Assembly: GCA_002713365.1 (NCBI GenBank) | Contig: PASR01000013.1 | Coordinates: forward strand, 49,932 to 99,710 | Length of the DNA stretch: 49,779 nt | Source of the DNA: Rhodospirillaceae bacterium | GTDB taxonomy: Bacteria > Pseudomonadota > Alphaproteobacteria > UBA6615 | Direction: 5' to 3' | Shown here: piece by piece, positions 20,442-26,758 of the stretch | Layout: every line of letters starts with the position of its first letter | Position numbering within the stretch: the stretch's first letter is position 1 | Translations under genes and position numbers: made by a program | Notes under the pieces: generated by a model | The model's database searches: none | Seen by the model: the letters and a program-made list of their open reading frames with translations, nothing else | Told to the model about the DNA's origin: nothing

Positions 20442-20475
20442 AGATTAGTCCAATAAGTATTGGTTCATCTAATCT
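20442..20475. terminator. Candidate bidirectional terminator between greA and the Lrp gene
   Basis: AGATTAG pairs with CTAATCT, and inside it CCAAT pairs with ATTGG around a 4-base loop. It lies between two convergent genes and touches the lrp-type stop codon. The stem is AT-rich and lacks a solid T tract. Confidence 0.4.
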
Positions 20476-20978
20476 AGATCGTAAACCGGAACCCCAGAAT
20501 TATGCTTCGATGTGCGAATTACTTGAAAAGTTTGGACTGTTGTTACATGTGATACACTTGTTAATCTAGTAGTTAGCTCATTTTCATGGGAAGTATTACG
20601 CGCAACAATTCGGAGTAAAAAATCACCACCCCCTCGTATCATATCACAACGGCGCACCTCAGGCCAGCTTCCGACCTGATTTTCAAATTCAGAAAGAACT
20701 TCTCCAGCTTGACTATCAAGGCCTACTAAAGCGTGGAATGAAACTTCGAAACCTAACATTTCTCCATCTAATTCTGCATGGTAGCCTTTAATAAATCCTG
20801 CAGCTTCCAAAGCTCTCACTCTTCTTAAACATGGTGGAGCAGAAATACCTGATAACCGAGCTAGATTAACATTAGTCATTCGACCATTATCCCTTAAATG
20901 ACGTAATATACGACGGTCTATTGCATCTAGTTTAATCTGCTTATCAGATTCTTTTATAGAATGATCAGAAGTTGTCAT
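20469..20978 (-). CDS. Lrp/AsnC family transcriptional regulator
   Basis: An Lrp/AsnC regulator of 169 residues when started at the ATG at 20978. The N-terminal helix-turn-helix is visible in LDAIDRRILRHLRDNGR and NLARLSGISAPPCLRRVRALE, followed by the RAM ligand-binding domain ending in VQTFQVIRTSK. An ATG 14 codons upstream (21020) is also open, but its extra residues do not look Lrp-like. These proteins commonly sense an amino acid. The target is unknown; the divergent ELM1 gene begins about 165 bases upstream. Confidence 0.9.
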   Translation of the reverse strand: MTTSDHSIKESDKQIKLDAIDRRILRHLRDNGRMTNVNLARLSGISAPPCLRRVRALEAAGFIKGYHAELDGEMLGFEVSFHALVGLDSQAGEVLSEFENQVGSWPEVRRCDMIRGGGDFLLRIVARNTSHENELTTRLTSVSHVTTVQTFQVIRTSKHNSGVPVYDLD

Positions 20979-21142
20979 CTTGAAAAAATACCCCCAATAA
21001 TCAATTAATATAAATCTCACTGATAGGAATCACGAGCAACTAGCCTATATTAAGTGCAAATAAGTCAGCAGATTGATGCTAGCAAATTGAAATAATATTA
21101 CAATTGTTACATTACGTTATTTTAAAATAAATCGAGTATATA

Positions 21143-22147
21143 TTGAAAAAAACCATTGAATCACGCCATACAACTGAAAGATTTAGCACTTGGATCCTAA
21201 CAGATGGCCGTCCGGGTATGGTTAATCAATGCCTGGGCCTTACTGAAGCTCTAAAAGCACGTTCAAAGCAAATAGATATTGCTCTATCAAAACCATGGGC
21301 TTGGATGCCACCAGCAATAACCCCAAAACAGTTATATATATTATCAAAATTTAGTGATCGCATTTCTCCTCCATGGCCGGACCTTATAATAGGGACTGGC
21401 CGTAAATCGGTTGCGTTAGCCATAGCAGTGAAACGTTTAAGTCAAGGTAAAACTTTTTGTGTACAAATACAGAACCCTGGATTAGCGATAAAAGAATTTG
21501 ATTTAGTGATAGCTCCCAAACACGATCAACTGAGCGGCACCAATGTATTTAGTACATTGGGCTCAGTTAATAGAGTTAATAAAGACACATTAAATCTAGC
21601 AAAAAAAGATTTTTGTAATGATTTATCCAAATTACCACAACCTGTTGTTACCGTTTTACTTGGAGGAAATAATGCCGTTTATCAAATGAACAAAAAAGTT
21701 GCCATAGACATTGCAAACAAACTACTCAACATATCAGAAACATATGAATACGGTCTAGCTATAACAACTTCGCCACGTACACCAACAGATATAGTTGAAA
21801 TTATAAATGAAAAACTAAAAGAGAAGTTAGTTAATAATAAGGCTATCCTCTGGAAAGGAGATGGCAGAAATCCCTACCTTGGATACCTAGCCCATGCTGA
21901 TTTTATCTTCGCAACTAATGACTCCGTAAATATGATTAGTGAAGCAGCAGCTACAGGAAAACCTGTATACACCATTGAATTGGACGGAGGGTCTAAGAAG
22001 TTTACAAGATTTCATAAAGCAATGAACGAAGCTAAAATTACCAGACCATTTAAAGATATTATAGAGCATTGGAGCTATCAAATTCCGAATGACACTATTA
22101 AAGCAGCCTCTGAAATTAAACTTCGTACAAATATAAAAAATGTATAA
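21143..22147 (+). CDS. Mitochondrial fission ELM1-like family protein (predicted GT-B fold)
   Basis: A 334-residue protein with the family N-terminus WILTDGRPGMVNQCLGLTEAL, the DLIIGTGRKSV segment, VTVLLGGNN, and FATNDSVNMISEAAATGKPVY, which resembles the nucleotide-sugar binding end of GT-B glycosyltransferases. The name comes from the plant protein ELM1; the bacterial function is not established and a glycan-transfer role is inferred. The start is TTG, with GAG upstream, because no ATG precedes the conserved N-terminus. It leads a same-strand run with a 2OG oxygenase and an unrecognised 662-residue protein. Confidence 0.85.
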   Translation: MKKTIESRHTTERFSTWILTDGRPGMVNQCLGLTEALKARSKQIDIALSKPWAWMPPAITPKQLYILSKFSDRISPPWPDLIIGTGRKSVALAIAVKRLSQGKTFCVQIQNPGLAIKEFDLVIAPKHDQLSGTNVFSTLGSVNRVNKDTLNLAKKDFCNDLSKLPQPVVTVLLGGNNAVYQMNKKVAIDIANKLLNISETYEYGLAITTSPRTPTDIVEIINEKLKEKLVNNKAILWKGDGRNPYLGYLAHADFIFATNDSVNMISEAAATGKPVYTIELDGGSKKFTRFHKAMNEAKITRPFKDIIEHWSYQIPNDTIKAASEIKLRTNIKNV

Positions 22148-22208
22148 ACTGTCTAATTAAATAATAATCTCCTTTGCATTACTGGTATTCCCAGTCTAAA
22201 AAAGTAGT

Positions 22209-22832
22209 ATGGTAGCCATAGATCTAGACGCGATAGATACTGCATCTCCAAATCTTGACCCCTTTGAGCACTTGATTGTACCGAAGGTTATTAGGAGTGA
22301 TGCTCTACAAATGATTCTTAATGATTTTCCTAAAATAGAAAAGCCAGGAAGCCACCCGATAAATAAAAAACTTAGTGGTACTAATTTCGTATCATTGATC
22401 CAGGAACTGCACTCCCAGGGTTTTTCGGAGCTAATAGGAAATAAACTAGGCATTAAGCTAACCAATCAACCAATAATTATAACTATCCGGGGTCAATGCC
22501 GGCTTTCCGACGGAAAAATTCATGCGGATTCCAAAGAAAAGTTAGTCACTGCCCTTATCTATCTAAATGATTCTTGGGACATATCAGGCGGTAAATTACG
22601 ACTATTAAAAAATAATCATAATCTCGATGATTACGTCGCCGAGATACCTCCTGATGCTGGCAGCCTTGTTGCATTTGTTTGTCGACCCAACGCTTGGCAT
22701 GGTCATCACAAATTTGAAGGAAAAAGGCAAACGATTCAGATAAATTGGGTGCGAAGCCATAAATACAAGATACGTGAGCAAATAAGGCATACCTTAACGG
22801 CTAACTTAAAAAAGTTAATTGGTTGGATATAA
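22209..22832 (+). CDS. 2-oxoglutarate/Fe(II)-dependent oxygenase family protein
   Basis: The 207-residue protein has a facial triad, H105 and D107 in IHADSKEK and H164 in AWHGHH, with R173 in GKRQTIQINW as likely 2-oxoglutarate anchor. Between them lie LIYLND and GGKLRLL, as in small prolyl-4-hydroxylase-like oxygenases. It probably hydroxylates a substrate with Fe(II), O2 and 2-oxoglutarate. It sits 61 bases after the ELM1-like gene and 15 bases before the 662-residue gene, suggesting a common transcript. Confidence 0.85.
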   Translation: MVAIDLDAIDTASPNLDPFEHLIVPKVIRSDALQMILNDFPKIEKPGSHPINKKLSGTNFVSLIQELHSQGFSELIGNKLGIKLTNQPIIITIRGQCRLSDGKIHADSKEKLVTALIYLNDSWDISGGKLRLLKNNHNLDDYVAEIPPDAGSLVAFVCRPNAWHGHHKFEGKRQTIQINWVRSHKYKIREQIRHTLTANLKKLIGWI

Positions 22833-22847
22833 TTAGATGGAATTACT

Positions 22848-24836
22848 ATGGCTCTATGTATAGATACCTTCTCTAACTCTGACGGAGGATTCCCATTTTT
22901 TAAGGCAGCTGGCCATCCTGCGTCAGCGCCTCTAATTATAAAATTACTCAAACGGCTATCTAAGGCTAACAAGGTAGCTATCTATGATCCACTAGGGTTT
23001 GCCAATGGTTTTTTTGAAATATATTCATCGAATGAAATAACAATCGCAGATGTGTATGTACAAGATCTAAACAATATCGGAAAACAGATTCTTGGGTGCA
23101 CATCAGAACCTATAACTAATCTTATTTACTCAGAAGCTGACTTTGTTCTTATAATAGCATTTGATACCACTAAAATTTTGTCCGACATAAAACATCTGGT
23201 GCCAAGCAAATGTAAAGTTCTAAGCCTTGATGAGGCCAGACTAAACGAAAATAGATTAACTAATAAATCGCGTTATTTAGATTCACTTAATTTTGCGACT
23301 AACTTTGCATGGTTCAGAGACATTAAGGACGACCATGGAAATAGTCTACATACCCGTTTAGTTTCTGCTAATTATTGGTATCGTTACGGTTCAAAAAACA
23401 TAACCTTTTGGTTAATTTTATTTGACGATAATGGAGAAATTATTGCTGAATGGGATCAAAAGATAACAGATTCTCCGGTAGGAATTACTATAGATAGCGC
23501 AGAAATACGCGAACGCTTTCAATTAGGTGATTTTACCGGCCAACTTCTAGTCCATGTCCTAGGAGTGAAAGGCCACGATATAGTTAAATATGCCTTAGAT
23601 ACATATAGTGATAATCCACTAGACCTTTCCTGTACACATGACTCAAATGCCTGGCCTGCAGACTTTTATGCAGGAATACCAGCTCCTAAATCTGATGAAA
23701 AAGTAATTATTTGGATACAAAATAGCCATCCGGCGCCGATACCAGCAGGAGCGGTTAGAATAAATTTAATGGGTCACAATAACCAAGCAGCTTCTCTAAA
23801 TAAAGAAATCCCCCCCTTTGGTAGCTATCCTCTATCTATATCTGACTTACTACCTAATGCTATATGGCCCCAACAAATCGAATTAACTGCAGGCAAACAC
23901 TTTACAAGACCACGTTATGAAATATTAAAAAGCTTCACTGATGGCACTATCAAACATCGTTTAGCTCACGCTAATATCGAGCGGGTAGACCTGTCACCAG
24001 ACCCAGAAATAGAAAAAATAAGTAATTTAATGGGCAAAGGATTCCTTTTGCCTGCCCCAATACTTCCCGCCAGTAAGTTTCTTACAACGATTCTACCTAC
24101 ACCAATGGCATTAACCCAAGAAAAACTTCCAATTACAGCTCTATTTTATAATTATTTAGGAAAAAAAGTGGCTGAATTTGAATTTGGGGAAATTCTCCGA
24201 ACTGATAGCTTTGAGATAACTAGTGATATTATTGGTGATTGTGGTCTAGATGAGAAAGCAGGCCACGTTGAATTAATATATAATTTTTCTATTGCAACAC
24301 ATAGTGTTGACGGCTGGCTACATGCTTTAATTCGTTATGAAGATAAAGCTACAGGCCATGTCGCAGAATCTAGTTTTGGGGCACATATTTTTAATACAGT
24401 CCTAACATGGAACGGAGAACCTCAATCTTACTCCAGTAATCCCCCAGGTCTAACCACCCGTTTATTTTTACGAACTGCGTCAAGCATGGGTATATCAAGT
24501 TTAGCAGTAGGAGGTGAAGGAGCTGATACATTTTGTCATCTAATATACCCTGCATCTACACCCTGGCATACAGAATCGAATACCGAAGTAATTTTATACG
24601 CTAGCAGCGGGAAGCAAATAGCAAGTCGTAAAATAAATATAGCTTGTGGAGGCTCAAAATATTTTTTGATATCAGAAATCTTCGAAGAAGATGAACGCAA
24701 AGCTGCTTATCAAATAGACGGAGTTAACAATGGATATATAATTATCCGGGATACTACTTGCAGACTATTTGGCTATCATGGCTTAATTTCAGCTTGCGGA
24801 AAAGCGTTCAGTCTGGATCACATGTTCGGATTTTAG
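22848..24836 (+). CDS. Unrecognised 662-residue protein, beta-rich
   Basis: I cannot assign a family. Residues about 1-130 look like an alpha/beta (Rossmann-like) domain with VAIYDPLGFANGF and ADFVLIIAFD. From about 155 on, the protein is rich in short beta strands with recurring elements of the type L-FDDNGEII and LYASSGKQIA, suggesting two or more Ig-like or jelly-roll modules. It ends in a striking RDTTCRLFGYHG then SLDHMFGF, probably a conserved signature. No signal peptide or membrane segment is visible. It starts 15 bases after the 2OG oxygenase and ends 14 bases before the DLH-family start, so it is probably cotranscribed with both. Confidence 0.7.
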   Translation: MALCIDTFSNSDGGFPFFKAAGHPASAPLIIKLLKRLSKANKVAIYDPLGFANGFFEIYSSNEITIADVYVQDLNNIGKQILGCTSEPITNLIYSEADFVLIIAFDTTKILSDIKHLVPSKCKVLSLDEARLNENRLTNKSRYLDSLNFATNFAWFRDIKDDHGNSLHTRLVSANYWYRYGSKNITFWLILFDDNGEIIAEWDQKITDSPVGITIDSAEIRERFQLGDFTGQLLVHVLGVKGHDIVKYALDTYSDNPLDLSCTHDSNAWPADFYAGIPAPKSDEKVIIWIQNSHPAPIPAGAVRINLMGHNNQAASLNKEIPPFGSYPLSISDLLPNAIWPQQIELTAGKHFTRPRYEILKSFTDGTIKHRLAHANIERVDLSPDPEIEKISNLMGKGFLLPAPILPASKFLTTILPTPMALTQEKLPITALFYNYLGKKVAEFEFGEILRTDSFEITSDIIGDCGLDEKAGHVELIYNFSIATHSVDGWLHALIRYEDKATGHVAESSFGAHIFNTVLTWNGEPQSYSSNPPGLTTRLFLRTASSMGISSLAVGGEGADTFCHLIYPASTPWHTESNTEVILYASSGKQIASRKINIACGGSKYFLISEIFEEDERKAAYQIDGVNNGYIIIRDTTCRLFGYHGLISACGKAFSLDHMFGF

Positions 24837-24850
24837 AAGGGAAAATGAAT

Positions 24851-25582
24851 ATGGGTGAGAAGGAATCAATAGTTAACACTGATGATGGAGAAATGTATGC
24901 GTTTTCTGTTTGGCCTGATAATAATGGCCCGCATCCGGTAATAGTTCTGTATATGGATGCACCCGGAATACGAGAAGAACTAAGAAATTTTGCTCGCCGA
25001 ATAGCGGCACAGGGTTATTATGCCATACTACCGGATTTATATTATCGCCTAGGAAATATCCGGTTTAATCTACAAAACCGTAATGAAAAGATGGGCGAAA
25101 TGATTTTTGCAGCATGGCATAGCCTTAGTAATTCTGCTGTAAGCAGAGATACAGCTAAAATCTTGGAATTCTTGGATAGTGAACAACATGCTTCTGACGG
25201 ACCAATGGGATGTGTGGGCTATTGTATGAGCGGAGCATTTGTTGTCACAGTAGCTGGAATTTACTCGGATCGTTTCGCAGCTGTTGCATCTCTTTATGGT
25301 GTATGGATAGTTACAGAAAACGATGATTCACCGCATCTACAAATCCCTAATATTAAAAGTGAGCTATATCTTGCCTTCGCTGAACACGATCATTGGATAG
25401 GAGAAAATGTCATACCAGACCTTACTAAAGCATGTAAGGATTATAACGTGGTATACGAAATAGAAACATACCCAGGAACAGAGCATGGATATGCCTTTCC
25501 TGAACGAGAGGTTTACAATGAGGAGGCAGCAGAAGCCACTTGGACAAAGATGTTTGAACTTTACTCTAGGACTCTTGGATGA
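24851..25582 (+). CDS. Dienelactone hydrolase family protein
   Basis: A 243-residue alpha/beta hydrolase of the dienelactone hydrolase family with an intact Cys-Asp-His triad: C125 in GYCMSG, D180 in AEHDHW and H212 in TEHGYAFP. Members open lactone or ester bonds. The start is chosen at the ATG at 24851, 9 bases after GAAGGG; the in-frame ATG at 24845 sits too close to it, and longer readings would run into the previous gene. The stop lies 66 bases before the class III alcohol dehydrogenase. Confidence 0.9.
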   Translation: MGEKESIVNTDDGEMYAFSVWPDNNGPHPVIVLYMDAPGIREELRNFARRIAAQGYYAILPDLYYRLGNIRFNLQNRNEKMGEMIFAAWHSLSNSAVSRDTAKILEFLDSEQHASDGPMGCVGYCMSGAFVVTVAGIYSDRFAAVASLYGVWIVTENDDSPHLQIPNIKSELYLAFAEHDHWIGENVIPDLTKACKDYNVVYEIETYPGTEHGYAFPEREVYNEEAAEATWTKMFELYSRTLG

Positions 25583-25648
25583 TTTTTCATTAGCTAATAG
25601 ATTACATATGAATATTTTATTTTAATTTAGATTCTAAGGGAGATGGCT

Positions 25649-26758
25649 ATGGATACATTAGCTGCCGTGGCACATGAAGCAGGTCAAAAACTCGTCATGG
25701 AAACTGTTCAATTAGAAGGTCCAAAGAGTAATGAAGTTTTAGTTGAAATTAAGGCAAGTGGAATTTGTCATACTGACGAGTTTACTCTATCTGGTGCCGA
25801 CCCTGAAGGAATATTTCCTGCCATTTTAGGCCATGAAGGTGCAGGAATAATCGTTGAGATAGGGTCAGAAGTAACAACTTTAAAACCGGGAGACCATGTT
25901 ATCCCGCTTTATACACCTGAGTGTAGGAACTGTAGCTATTGTTTAAGCGGAAAAACAAATCTTTGCCAAGCTATAAGGGACACTCAAGGTAAAGGCCTTA
26001 TGCCAGATGGGACCTCAAGGTTTTCTTTACGTGGTAAACAAATATTTCACTATATGGGTACCTCAACATTTTCTAATTATACAGTTTTACCAGAAATTGC
26101 AGTAGCTAAAATCAGAAAAGACGCCCCATTCGAAAAGGTATGCTATATCGGGTGTGGAGTGACAACAGGTCTCGGCGCGGTAATAAACACCGCTAAGGTT
26201 CAACCAGGAGATAATGTAGTAGTATTTGGCCTTGGAGGTATAGGTCTTAATGTAGTACAGGGAGCTCGTATGGTTGGAGCTAATATGATAGTTGGTGTTG
26301 ATCTAAATCCTGGCCGAAAATTAATTGCGGAAAAATTTGGTTTAACTGATTTTATAAATCCAGATGAAATAGAAAACGACCTAGTCGATTACATAATTGA
26401 CTTAACCGATGGAGGAGCAGATCACTCATTTGAGTGTATTGGGAATACTGATATAATGCGCCAAGCACTTGAATGCTGTCATAAAGGTTGGGGGAAATCC
26501 ACTATAATTGGAGTTGCACCATCGGGTGCTGAAATCTCAACAAGGCCATTTCAATTGGTCACTGGTCGGGTTTGGCAAGGCACAGCATTTGGAGGGGCTA
26601 AAGGACGCACGGATGTGCCCAAAATTGTGGAATGGTATATGGATGGAAAGATTAATATTGATGATTTAATAACACATGTAATGCCAGCGAAAAATATAAA
26701 TAATGCCTTTGACCTAATGAAAAAGGGAGAATCAATCCGTACTGTGATTACATTTTAA
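25649..26758 (+). CDS. S-(hydroxymethyl)glutathione dehydrogenase / class III alcohol dehydrogenase
   Basis: A zinc-dependent medium-chain dehydrogenase of 369 residues that oxidises S-hydroxymethylglutathione with NAD in formaldehyde detoxification and can reduce S-nitrosoglutathione. Catalytic zinc ligands are C40, H62 (GHEGAG) and C169, and the structural zinc uses C92, C95, C98 and C106. The GLGGIGLNVVQGA NAD motif and the long DTQGKGLMPDGTSRF loop fit class III. The ATG at 25649 has better spacing from AAGGGAG than the one at 25643. No S-formylglutathione hydrolase or gfa gene is adjacent; the nearest hydrolase is the DLH-family gene upstream. Confidence 0.93.
   Translation: MDTLAAVAHEAGQKLVMETVQLEGPKSNEVLVEIKASGICHTDEFTLSGADPEGIFPAILGHEGAGIIVEIGSEVTTLKPGDHVIPLYTPECRNCSYCLSGKTNLCQAIRDTQGKGLMPDGTSRFSLRGKQIFHYMGTSTFSNYTVLPEIAVAKIRKDAPFEKVCYIGCGVTTGLGAVINTAKVQPGDNVVVFGLGGIGLNVVQGARMVGANMIVGVDLNPGRKLIAEKFGLTDFINPDEIENDLVDYIIDLTDGGADHSFECIGNTDIMRQALECCHKGWGKSTIIGVAPSGAEISTRPFQLVTGRVWQGTAFGGAKGRTDVPKIVEWYMDGKINIDDLITHVMPAKNINNAFDLMKKGESIRTVITF

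Follow-up and report, generated by a model that had tools for sequence, protein, structure and literature searches.

The window analysed here is a 49,779-nucleotide stretch of contig PASR01000013.1 (assembly GCA_002713365.1, positions 49,932 to 99,710, forward strand) from the 2.5 Mb genome of a Rhodospirillaceae bacterium, whose relatives with named records are alphaproteobacteria. It carries four successive genes encoding an ELM1-family glycosyltransferase, a 2-oxoglutarate (2OG)-Fe(II) oxygenase, a 662-residue protein without a family name (termed P662 here), and a dienelactone hydrolase (DLH)-family protein (Table 1). Open reading frame calling placed all four on the forward strand exactly where the original prediction, made from the sequence alone, had put them. 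The first two gaps are exactly 61 and 15 bases; the third is 14 bases, as predicted, if the DLH gene starts at the ATG at 24851, and an alternative in-frame ATG is located at 24845. The family names proposed for the first, second and fourth genes were borne out by Pfam. The ELM1 match (PF06258, Mito_fiss_Elm1) is full length, with residues 24-326 aligned to positions 1-301 of the 304-position model.

Table 1. Genes and protein features of the region, given as positions in the window
Feature	Position	Strand	Basis
ELM1-family (KdoT-like) GT-B glycosyltransferase, 334 residues	21143..22147	+	PF06258, 4.6e-94; TTG start uncertain
S210-P-R-T213, equivalent of the KdoT SRRT motif, second Arg kept	21770..21781	+	Alignment consensus SRRT
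2OG-Fe(II) oxygenase (2OG-FeII_Oxy_3), 207 residues	22209..22832	+	PF13640, 1.9e-9, above cut-off
Oxygenase iron ligands H105-A-D107	22521..22529	+	Invariant in 32 sequences
Oxygenase H164	22698-22700	+	Invariant in 32 sequences
Oxygenase R173	22725-22727	+	Invariant in 32 sequences
P662, 662 residues, no family name, predicted cytosolic	22848..24836	+	Family scans, distribution
P662 N-terminal Rossmann-like domain, residues ~15-145	22890..23282	+	Structural match to Rex-type domains
P662 beta-sandwich 1, residues ~149-262	23292..23633	+	Secondary structure of model
P662 beta-sandwich 2, residues 268-380, ASRT/TM1070-like	23649..23987	+	Match to 1nc7_B
P662 beta-sandwich 3, residues ~398-518	24039..24401	+	Models
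P662 beta-sandwich 4, residues ~530-662, ASRT/TM1070-like, ends SLDHMFGF	24435..24833	+	Model of L045 homologue
DLH-family hydrolase, neighbour, judged outside the core	24851..25582	+	PF01738, 6.3e-42
Lrp/AsnC-type regulator, divergent neighbour, context and not core	20469..21020	-	HTH_24 and AsnC_trans_reg (Pfam)
AdhC, S-(hydroxymethyl)glutathione dehydrogenase, context	25643..26758	+	TIGR02818, 612 bits (cut-off 544)
TrxB-like thioredoxin reductase, context; closes the interval holding 2OG oxygenase and P662	26903..27850	+	Presumed name

The conserved core of the run consists of three genes, in the order ELM1, 2OG oxygenase and P662. Among 136 P662 loci, which are not independent (some represent the same contig reached by two routes, e.g. 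L030 and L043) and several of which are interrupted by contig ends, 107 have ELM1 on the strand of P662 and no more than 6 kb upstream, and 76 have the oxygenase within 6 kb upstream. The distance between ELM1 and P662 was compared in the 71 of 92 P662-encoding genomes for which both coordinates were listed (the remaining 21 fall outside this comparison); for G152, which has two ELM1 genes, it was taken from the one on the P662 contig. Of these 71 genomes, 61 have both genes on a common contig and strand no more than 4.6 kb apart, with gaps of less than 400 bases in 14, 400-1000 bases in 38, and 1-4.6 kb in 9. The arrangement is far from chance, since it recurs across alphaproteobacteria. Adjacency of three genes is conserved in distant genomes, an observation that the original prediction had named as support for its claim, and the neighbourhood is not a peculiarity of this genome.

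The genes flanking the core are also widely shared. TrxB was found downstream of P662 in 93 of the 136 loci and the Lrp regulator within 6 kb upstream in 88. The names TrxB, LysR, CarA, CarB, GreA, and WaaA are presumed ones, and the TrxB-like gene of the window was so named from the look of its sequence, not from a scan. Twenty ELM1 loci were fetched from genomes that do not encode P662. In the 17 that were readable, neither a 2OG oxygenase nor P662 was labelled near ELM1, TrxB directly followed ELM1 in 13, and the Lrp regulator was near ELM1 in 12. Because TrxB directly follows ELM1 in most of these loci, the oxygenase and P662 genes were probably inserted into, or lost from, an ELM1-TrxB interval.

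The presence of the same block without the two genes would also fit an explanation by shared position only, in which carAB-greA-lrp-ELM1-trxB is a syntenic block and the oxygenase and P662 are unrelated passengers kept in it by slow rearrangement. Pairwise distances of P662 do track those of TrxB (r 0.76-0.82). The distances of P662, ELM1, and the oxygenase correlate with one another (r 0.82-0.89, 54 loci) slightly more closely than with those of TrxB (r 0.77-0.82). However, the adjacency of ELM1 and P662 outlasts the flanking block (L024, L152, and L161), oxygenases accompany ELM1 at other sites and in different gene orders, and ELM1 is missing from none of the 92 P662 genomes; an origin by position only is considered very improbable. 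In one locus (L145) the order is ELM1, a partner oxygenase, the 2OG oxygenase, and P662.

P662 is encoded in 92 of 387 alphaproteobacterial genomes, representing 63 of 263 genera, and in 27 of 40 relatives, with the window's own genome counted in these figures. The sample of 387 was rebuilt from genome handle numbers, and its total agrees with the number stated for it. No related loci were found when the single window P662 sequence was used as the query; with a P662 alignment as the query, relatives were detected in at least 578 stretches of named genome contigs, of which 80 were retained. The taxa include Azospirillum, Nitrospirillum, Oleisolibacter, Oceanibaculum, Pelagibius, Tistlia, Thalassobaculum, and numerous metagenome bins; two of these genera, Tistlia and Azospirillum, come from separate families of Rhodospirillales. 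In a phylum-wide sample P662 was present in 5 of 397 genomes, all of the same class, although the count of non-alphaproteobacteria drawn is not shown for this sample and absence outside the class is not established by it. A tblastn search of plasmids with P662 gave no match. Identity between the window protein and 13 diverse relatives is 42-61%, and over 100 columns of their alignment are invariant. The analysis offers an initial structural and genomic entry point to a large protein family that many Alphaproteobacteria possess.

Four P662 loci (L066, L076, L079, and L100) came from metagenome bins whose titles name Anaerolineae, Asaia bogorensis, and Rhizobium sp. Q54 and may be due to binning or naming errors. 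In G161 (C55:2221-4109) the P662 match is split into two pieces that overlap, and a TGA interrupts one of them; in G305 (C18:29128-29385) a short C-terminal remnant with a TAG was found; both are possible cases of P662 decay beside a stop-free ELM1 match.

No Pfam match at an expect value (E) of 1 or less, no NCBIfam match, and no PDB sequence match was obtained for P662. When 72 members were scanned against Pfam at E up to 10, no family appeared in more than three, and a profile search of the PDB returned a single chance-level match (E 1.4). The label of an unrecognised protein, given to it in the prediction, holds at the level of sequence families, and no characterised family of unrelated role claims it, but its fold carries recognisable ASRT-like sandwiches. 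The AlphaFold2 model built from the 72 sequences (mean predicted local distance difference test score, pLDDT, 87.2; predicted template modelling score, pTM, 0.89) is largely beta, as had been proposed, and was read as an N-terminal alpha/beta domain followed by four beta-sandwiches. In the C-terminal SLDHMFGF ending, singled out as striking in the prediction, D657-G661 are invariant and S655 and F662 nearly so across the 72 sequences. Foldseek matches of the whole model were beta-sandwich look-alikes with template modelling scores (TM-scores) of about 0.1, and those of the C-terminal half had TM-scores of 0.14-0.26; none was convincing.

Structural relatives were obtained by VIA re-alignment to PDB chains, with results chiefly for residues 15-140 and 270-375 in the full model and, in a half model, for its last domain. 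Sandwich 2 aligned with 1nc7_B (Thermotoga maritima TM1070) with Z 10.2 and a root-mean-square deviation (rmsd) of 3.0 over 106 aligned residues. The C-terminal half of the L045 homologue was folded alone (pLDDT 88.1), and its sandwich 4, whose positions were carried over to the window protein by alignment, matched 1nc7_A with Z 11.5 and an rmsd of 2.8 over 104 residues and Anabaena ASRT (2ii8/2ii7) with Z 9.1, the next different fold reaching Z 6.0. Sandwiches 2 and 4 thus correspond to the eight-stranded TM1070 fold. Sandwiches 3 and 4 show weak profile similarity to each other (49% probability over 35 columns). An hhalign value for domains D1-D2 came from overlapping slices and was ignored.

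The ASRT/TM1070 group belongs to the ASRAH superfamily, a domain that De Souza and colleagues propose to bind sugars; its hallmarks are a Trp where strand 1 begins and an Asn where strand 2 ends (PMC2739507). The same authors note tetrads of the domain in amidases that are secreted and, in actinobacteria, dyads encoded next to a glycosyltransferase gene, and they propose that solo intracellular proteins are sugar sensors acting through protein contact (PMC2739507). In sandwich 2 of P662 both hallmarks could be placed by sequence position, W269 being present in 68 of 72 sequences (F in the other four) and N292 in all 72. The four sandwiches recall the amidase tetrads, and the linkage to a glycosyltransferase gene recalls the actinobacterial lipoproteins (PMC2739507), although the latter are secreted dyads with a WhiB neighbour. 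P662 differs from known ASRAH proteins in its N-terminal Rossmann-like domain and in the ASRT ligand signature SHExxCxxN, which is replaced (K/R285 and W289 are found instead). It is also missed by the Pfam ASRT model: PF07100 (solo ASRT) matched neither the window's own genome nor any of the 72 members. No export signal or membrane stretch was seen by inspection, the highest 19-residue hydropathy being 1.36, and P662 is predicted to be cytosolic. We place it in a new family of its own that has ASRT-like domains and lies outside PF07100.

The Rossmann-like domain aligned with Rex-type domains with Z up to 7.8 over residues 39-140; D47 and Q72 are invariant in it, and a GxGxxG motif is not clearly discernible. 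This resemblance to Rex sensors, together with the sensors proposed among solo ASRAH proteins (PMC2739507) and the lack of a recognisable catalytic family in P662, would suit a role as a sugar sensor in the cytosol, or as a protein that regulates ELM1 allosterically, instead of a scaffold, with the oxygenase as a separate enzyme of the same operon. However, a Z of 7.8 is within the range of common arrangements, and the many invariant polar residues through all P662 domains are, in our judgement, more than a simple sensor seems to need. A sensor of this kind is regarded as distinctly unlikely.

The puzzling ELM1 family, which takes its name from a mitochondrial fission factor of plants, is here tied to envelope sugar chemistry with partners that can be tested. 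KdoT of Acinetobacter baumannii, annotated as ELM1-like, was shown in a 2025 paper to move 3-deoxy-D-manno-octulosonic acid (Kdo) from cytidine monophosphate (CMP)-Kdo to Kdo2-lipid IVA in vitro (PMC12856342). In its SRRT motif Arg180 was found to be important and Arg179 dispensable, and a Rickettsia homologue partly restored the step, these two genera being the only sources of tested homologues in the passages considered (PMC12856342). The motif S-R-R-T is conserved at 90% or more in 108 ELM1 proteins from P662 loci and at 85% or more in 17 from P662-less genomes (three of the 20 loci, in which ELM1 was unlabelled, were left out). The window protein has S-P-R-T and retains the functionally important second Arg. 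The likeness to KdoT is one of annotation family and motif. A difference is that KdoT is described with GnaT and not with a 2OG oxygenase or P662.

Co-occurrence was assessed in the same 387 genomes, with a PF04413 match taken as the sign of WaaA and with Fisher tests that ignore shared ancestry. ELM1 was present in all 92 P662 genomes versus 226 of the 295 without P662 (p 8e-10). WaaA was present in 89 of 92 P662 genomes versus 250 of 295 others (p 8e-4), and in 297 of 318 ELM1 genomes versus 42 of 69 without ELM1 (p 7e-11). The window's own genome has a PF04413 match, a further likeness to the KdoT setting.

The second gene has an intact oxygenase site, as the prediction of an HxD...H motif had implied: H105, D107, H164, and R173 are invariant in 32 sequences, the window's included, all of which match PF13640. 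By the established features of the family, the first three are assigned as the iron triad and R173 as the 2OG-binding Arg. Close relatives of the oxygenase (more than 200 bits) were found in 28 of 40 P662 genomes versus 3 of 40 P662-less ELM1 genomes, and coordinates place 24 of the 28 no more than 1.4 kb from P662. An oxygenase abuts ELM1 in two of the three P662-less genomes, of the same family in L210 (5600-7296) and a divergent partner in L212 (6286-8023), in both cases directly before ELM1 and so in an order unlike that of the window. A link between ELM1 and the oxygenase therefore exists without P662. The divergent partner oxygenases keep H-x-D...H...R in seven sequences, and the Azospirillum copy has no Pfam match. 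Tandem pairs of 2OG and partner oxygenases were also observed away from ELM1 and P662 (L208:6103-7432, L211:5600-7029, L214:6106-7430, L215:6477-7782, and L216:6438-7851).

The nearest solved structures are 9blq and 9ei6, followed at far weaker E-values by prolyl hydroxylases of the HIF/EGLN type; no literature was found on the protein of 9BLQ. No chain named KdoO was among the PDB matches up to E 1, a search that did not include a direct comparison with the KdoO sequence. KdoO is described as a Kdo-3-hydroxylase that depends on Fe(II) and 2OG and whose step follows that of the Kdo transferase (PMC8533242). A 2OG oxygenase acting right after Kdo transfer is the role proposed here for the window enzyme, which differs in matching other 2OG groups and in the linkage of its gene to ELM1.

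The reading we prefer, tentatively and with a confidence just short of even, is that of a single cytosolic cassette, made up of ELM1, the 2OG oxygenase, and P662, by which a sugar, in all likelihood of the Kdo type, is attached to a lipid A-core precursor and oxidised. The sugar would be fitted before export of the precursor. ELM1 would act like KdoT, transferring it from a CMP-activated form, and the oxygenase would then hydroxylate the added sugar or its neighbour, as KdoO does with the terminal Kdo in Yersinia. P662 may bind the sugar or the acceptor through its ASRT-like sandwiches and hold or gauge it for both enzymes. The conservation of the gene unit, the KdoT motif of ELM1, the intact oxygenase site, and the ASRT-like folds of P662 are observed, while the substrate, the sequence of reactions, and the part of P662 as scaffold or sensor are inferred. 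If the reading holds, lipopolysaccharide core assembly gains an oxygenase-dependent step and a sugar-binding scaffold. The original prediction had suggested modification of a surface or storage molecule. Of these, a surface molecule is favoured because KdoT, a lipooligosaccharide Kdo transferase, belongs to the ELM1 family and because ELM1 co-occurs with WaaA; a biochemical role shared by the genes is, as in the prediction, putative. No published description of an ELM1-2OG-P662 unit was found in searches of an open-access literature collection. As a whole, the unit appears to be built on a KdoT-like transferase, with P662 as a new family.

Several observations weigh against this reading. Sixty of the 136 loci showed no oxygenase upstream of P662, 12 of 40 P662 genomes have no close relative of the enzyme, and in 10 of the 71 genomes compared ELM1 and P662 are not on one contig and strand. 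The nearest solved relatives of the oxygenase are P4H/EGLN-like and not KdoO. Sandwich 2 is the only one in which the Trp and Asn hallmarks were made out; they could not be placed by eye in sandwich 4. No significant match came from hhalign comparison of the P662 N-terminal domain and sandwiches with four ASRT sequences. Since 226 of the 318 ELM1 genomes lack P662, the basic role of ELM1 does not need it. Genes for lipopolysaccharide (LPS) were not recognised in the neighbourhood maps, which consist mostly of unscanned genes, apart from Lpt-like genes seen by eye in L025. Finally, 21 of the 318 ELM1 genomes, three of them with P662, have no PF04413 match. Some of these may reflect assembly gaps; nine of the 21 fall in families f32 (G054, G163, G243, G310, and G371) and f114 (G136, G219, G289, and G351) and have two to three ELM1 matches each, a finding that counts against Kdo being the sole ELM1 substrate. 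An ELM1 need not always act on Kdo, and some may serve another sugar.

The persistence of ELM1 without detectable WaaA also suits the possibility that the unit modifies another glycan or glycolipid, for instance a non-LPS envelope glycolipid, with ELM1 using another donor, the oxygenase altering a sugar or acyl chain, and P662 binding the product. The oxygenase family is generic (Pfam matches are to PF13640/PF13661 only), and only the Acinetobacter and Rickettsia KdoT homologues are reported as tested in the passages considered (PMC12856342). Against such a substrate stand the conservation of the KdoT motif across the ELM1 proteins examined, the strong co-occurrence of ELM1 and WaaA, and the partial restoration of the KdoT step by the Rickettsia homologue (PMC12856342). 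We consider another glycan unlikely.

For P662, a more specific form of the Kdo-type cassette can be put forward, which we likewise hold to be unlikely in its full detail. Inside the cell, the protein would join a degenerate Rossmann domain to a tetrad of ASRT-like sandwiches that bind sugars, and would serve as a lectin-like platform on which a KdoT-type transferase works with one or two 2OG oxygenases to build a hydroxylated Kdo-like residue of the LPS core in many alphaproteobacteria. If true, this would represent a KdoO-independent route to hydroxylated Kdo-like sugars.

Genes beyond the core gave no consistent pathway, either among the scanned neighbours (a glutamine amidotransferase, a metallo-beta-lactamase, and an aminotransferase-family protein) or among those inspected by eye. 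In L025 (7705-16168), P662 follows a run that resembles LptF, LptG, and LptD by eye (unscanned) and a membrane protein; the listed ELM1 of that genome (G033) is on a different contig from P662. A four-gene system including DLH was rejected: the DLH gene was found downstream of P662 in only 15 of the 136 loci, 11 of which also have AdhC. It looks like a passenger of one group, as the original prediction had allowed. AdhC, next to it in the window, is a glutathione-dependent formaldehyde dehydrogenase, and the two genes (24851-26758) may form a formaldehyde or thioester unit of their own.

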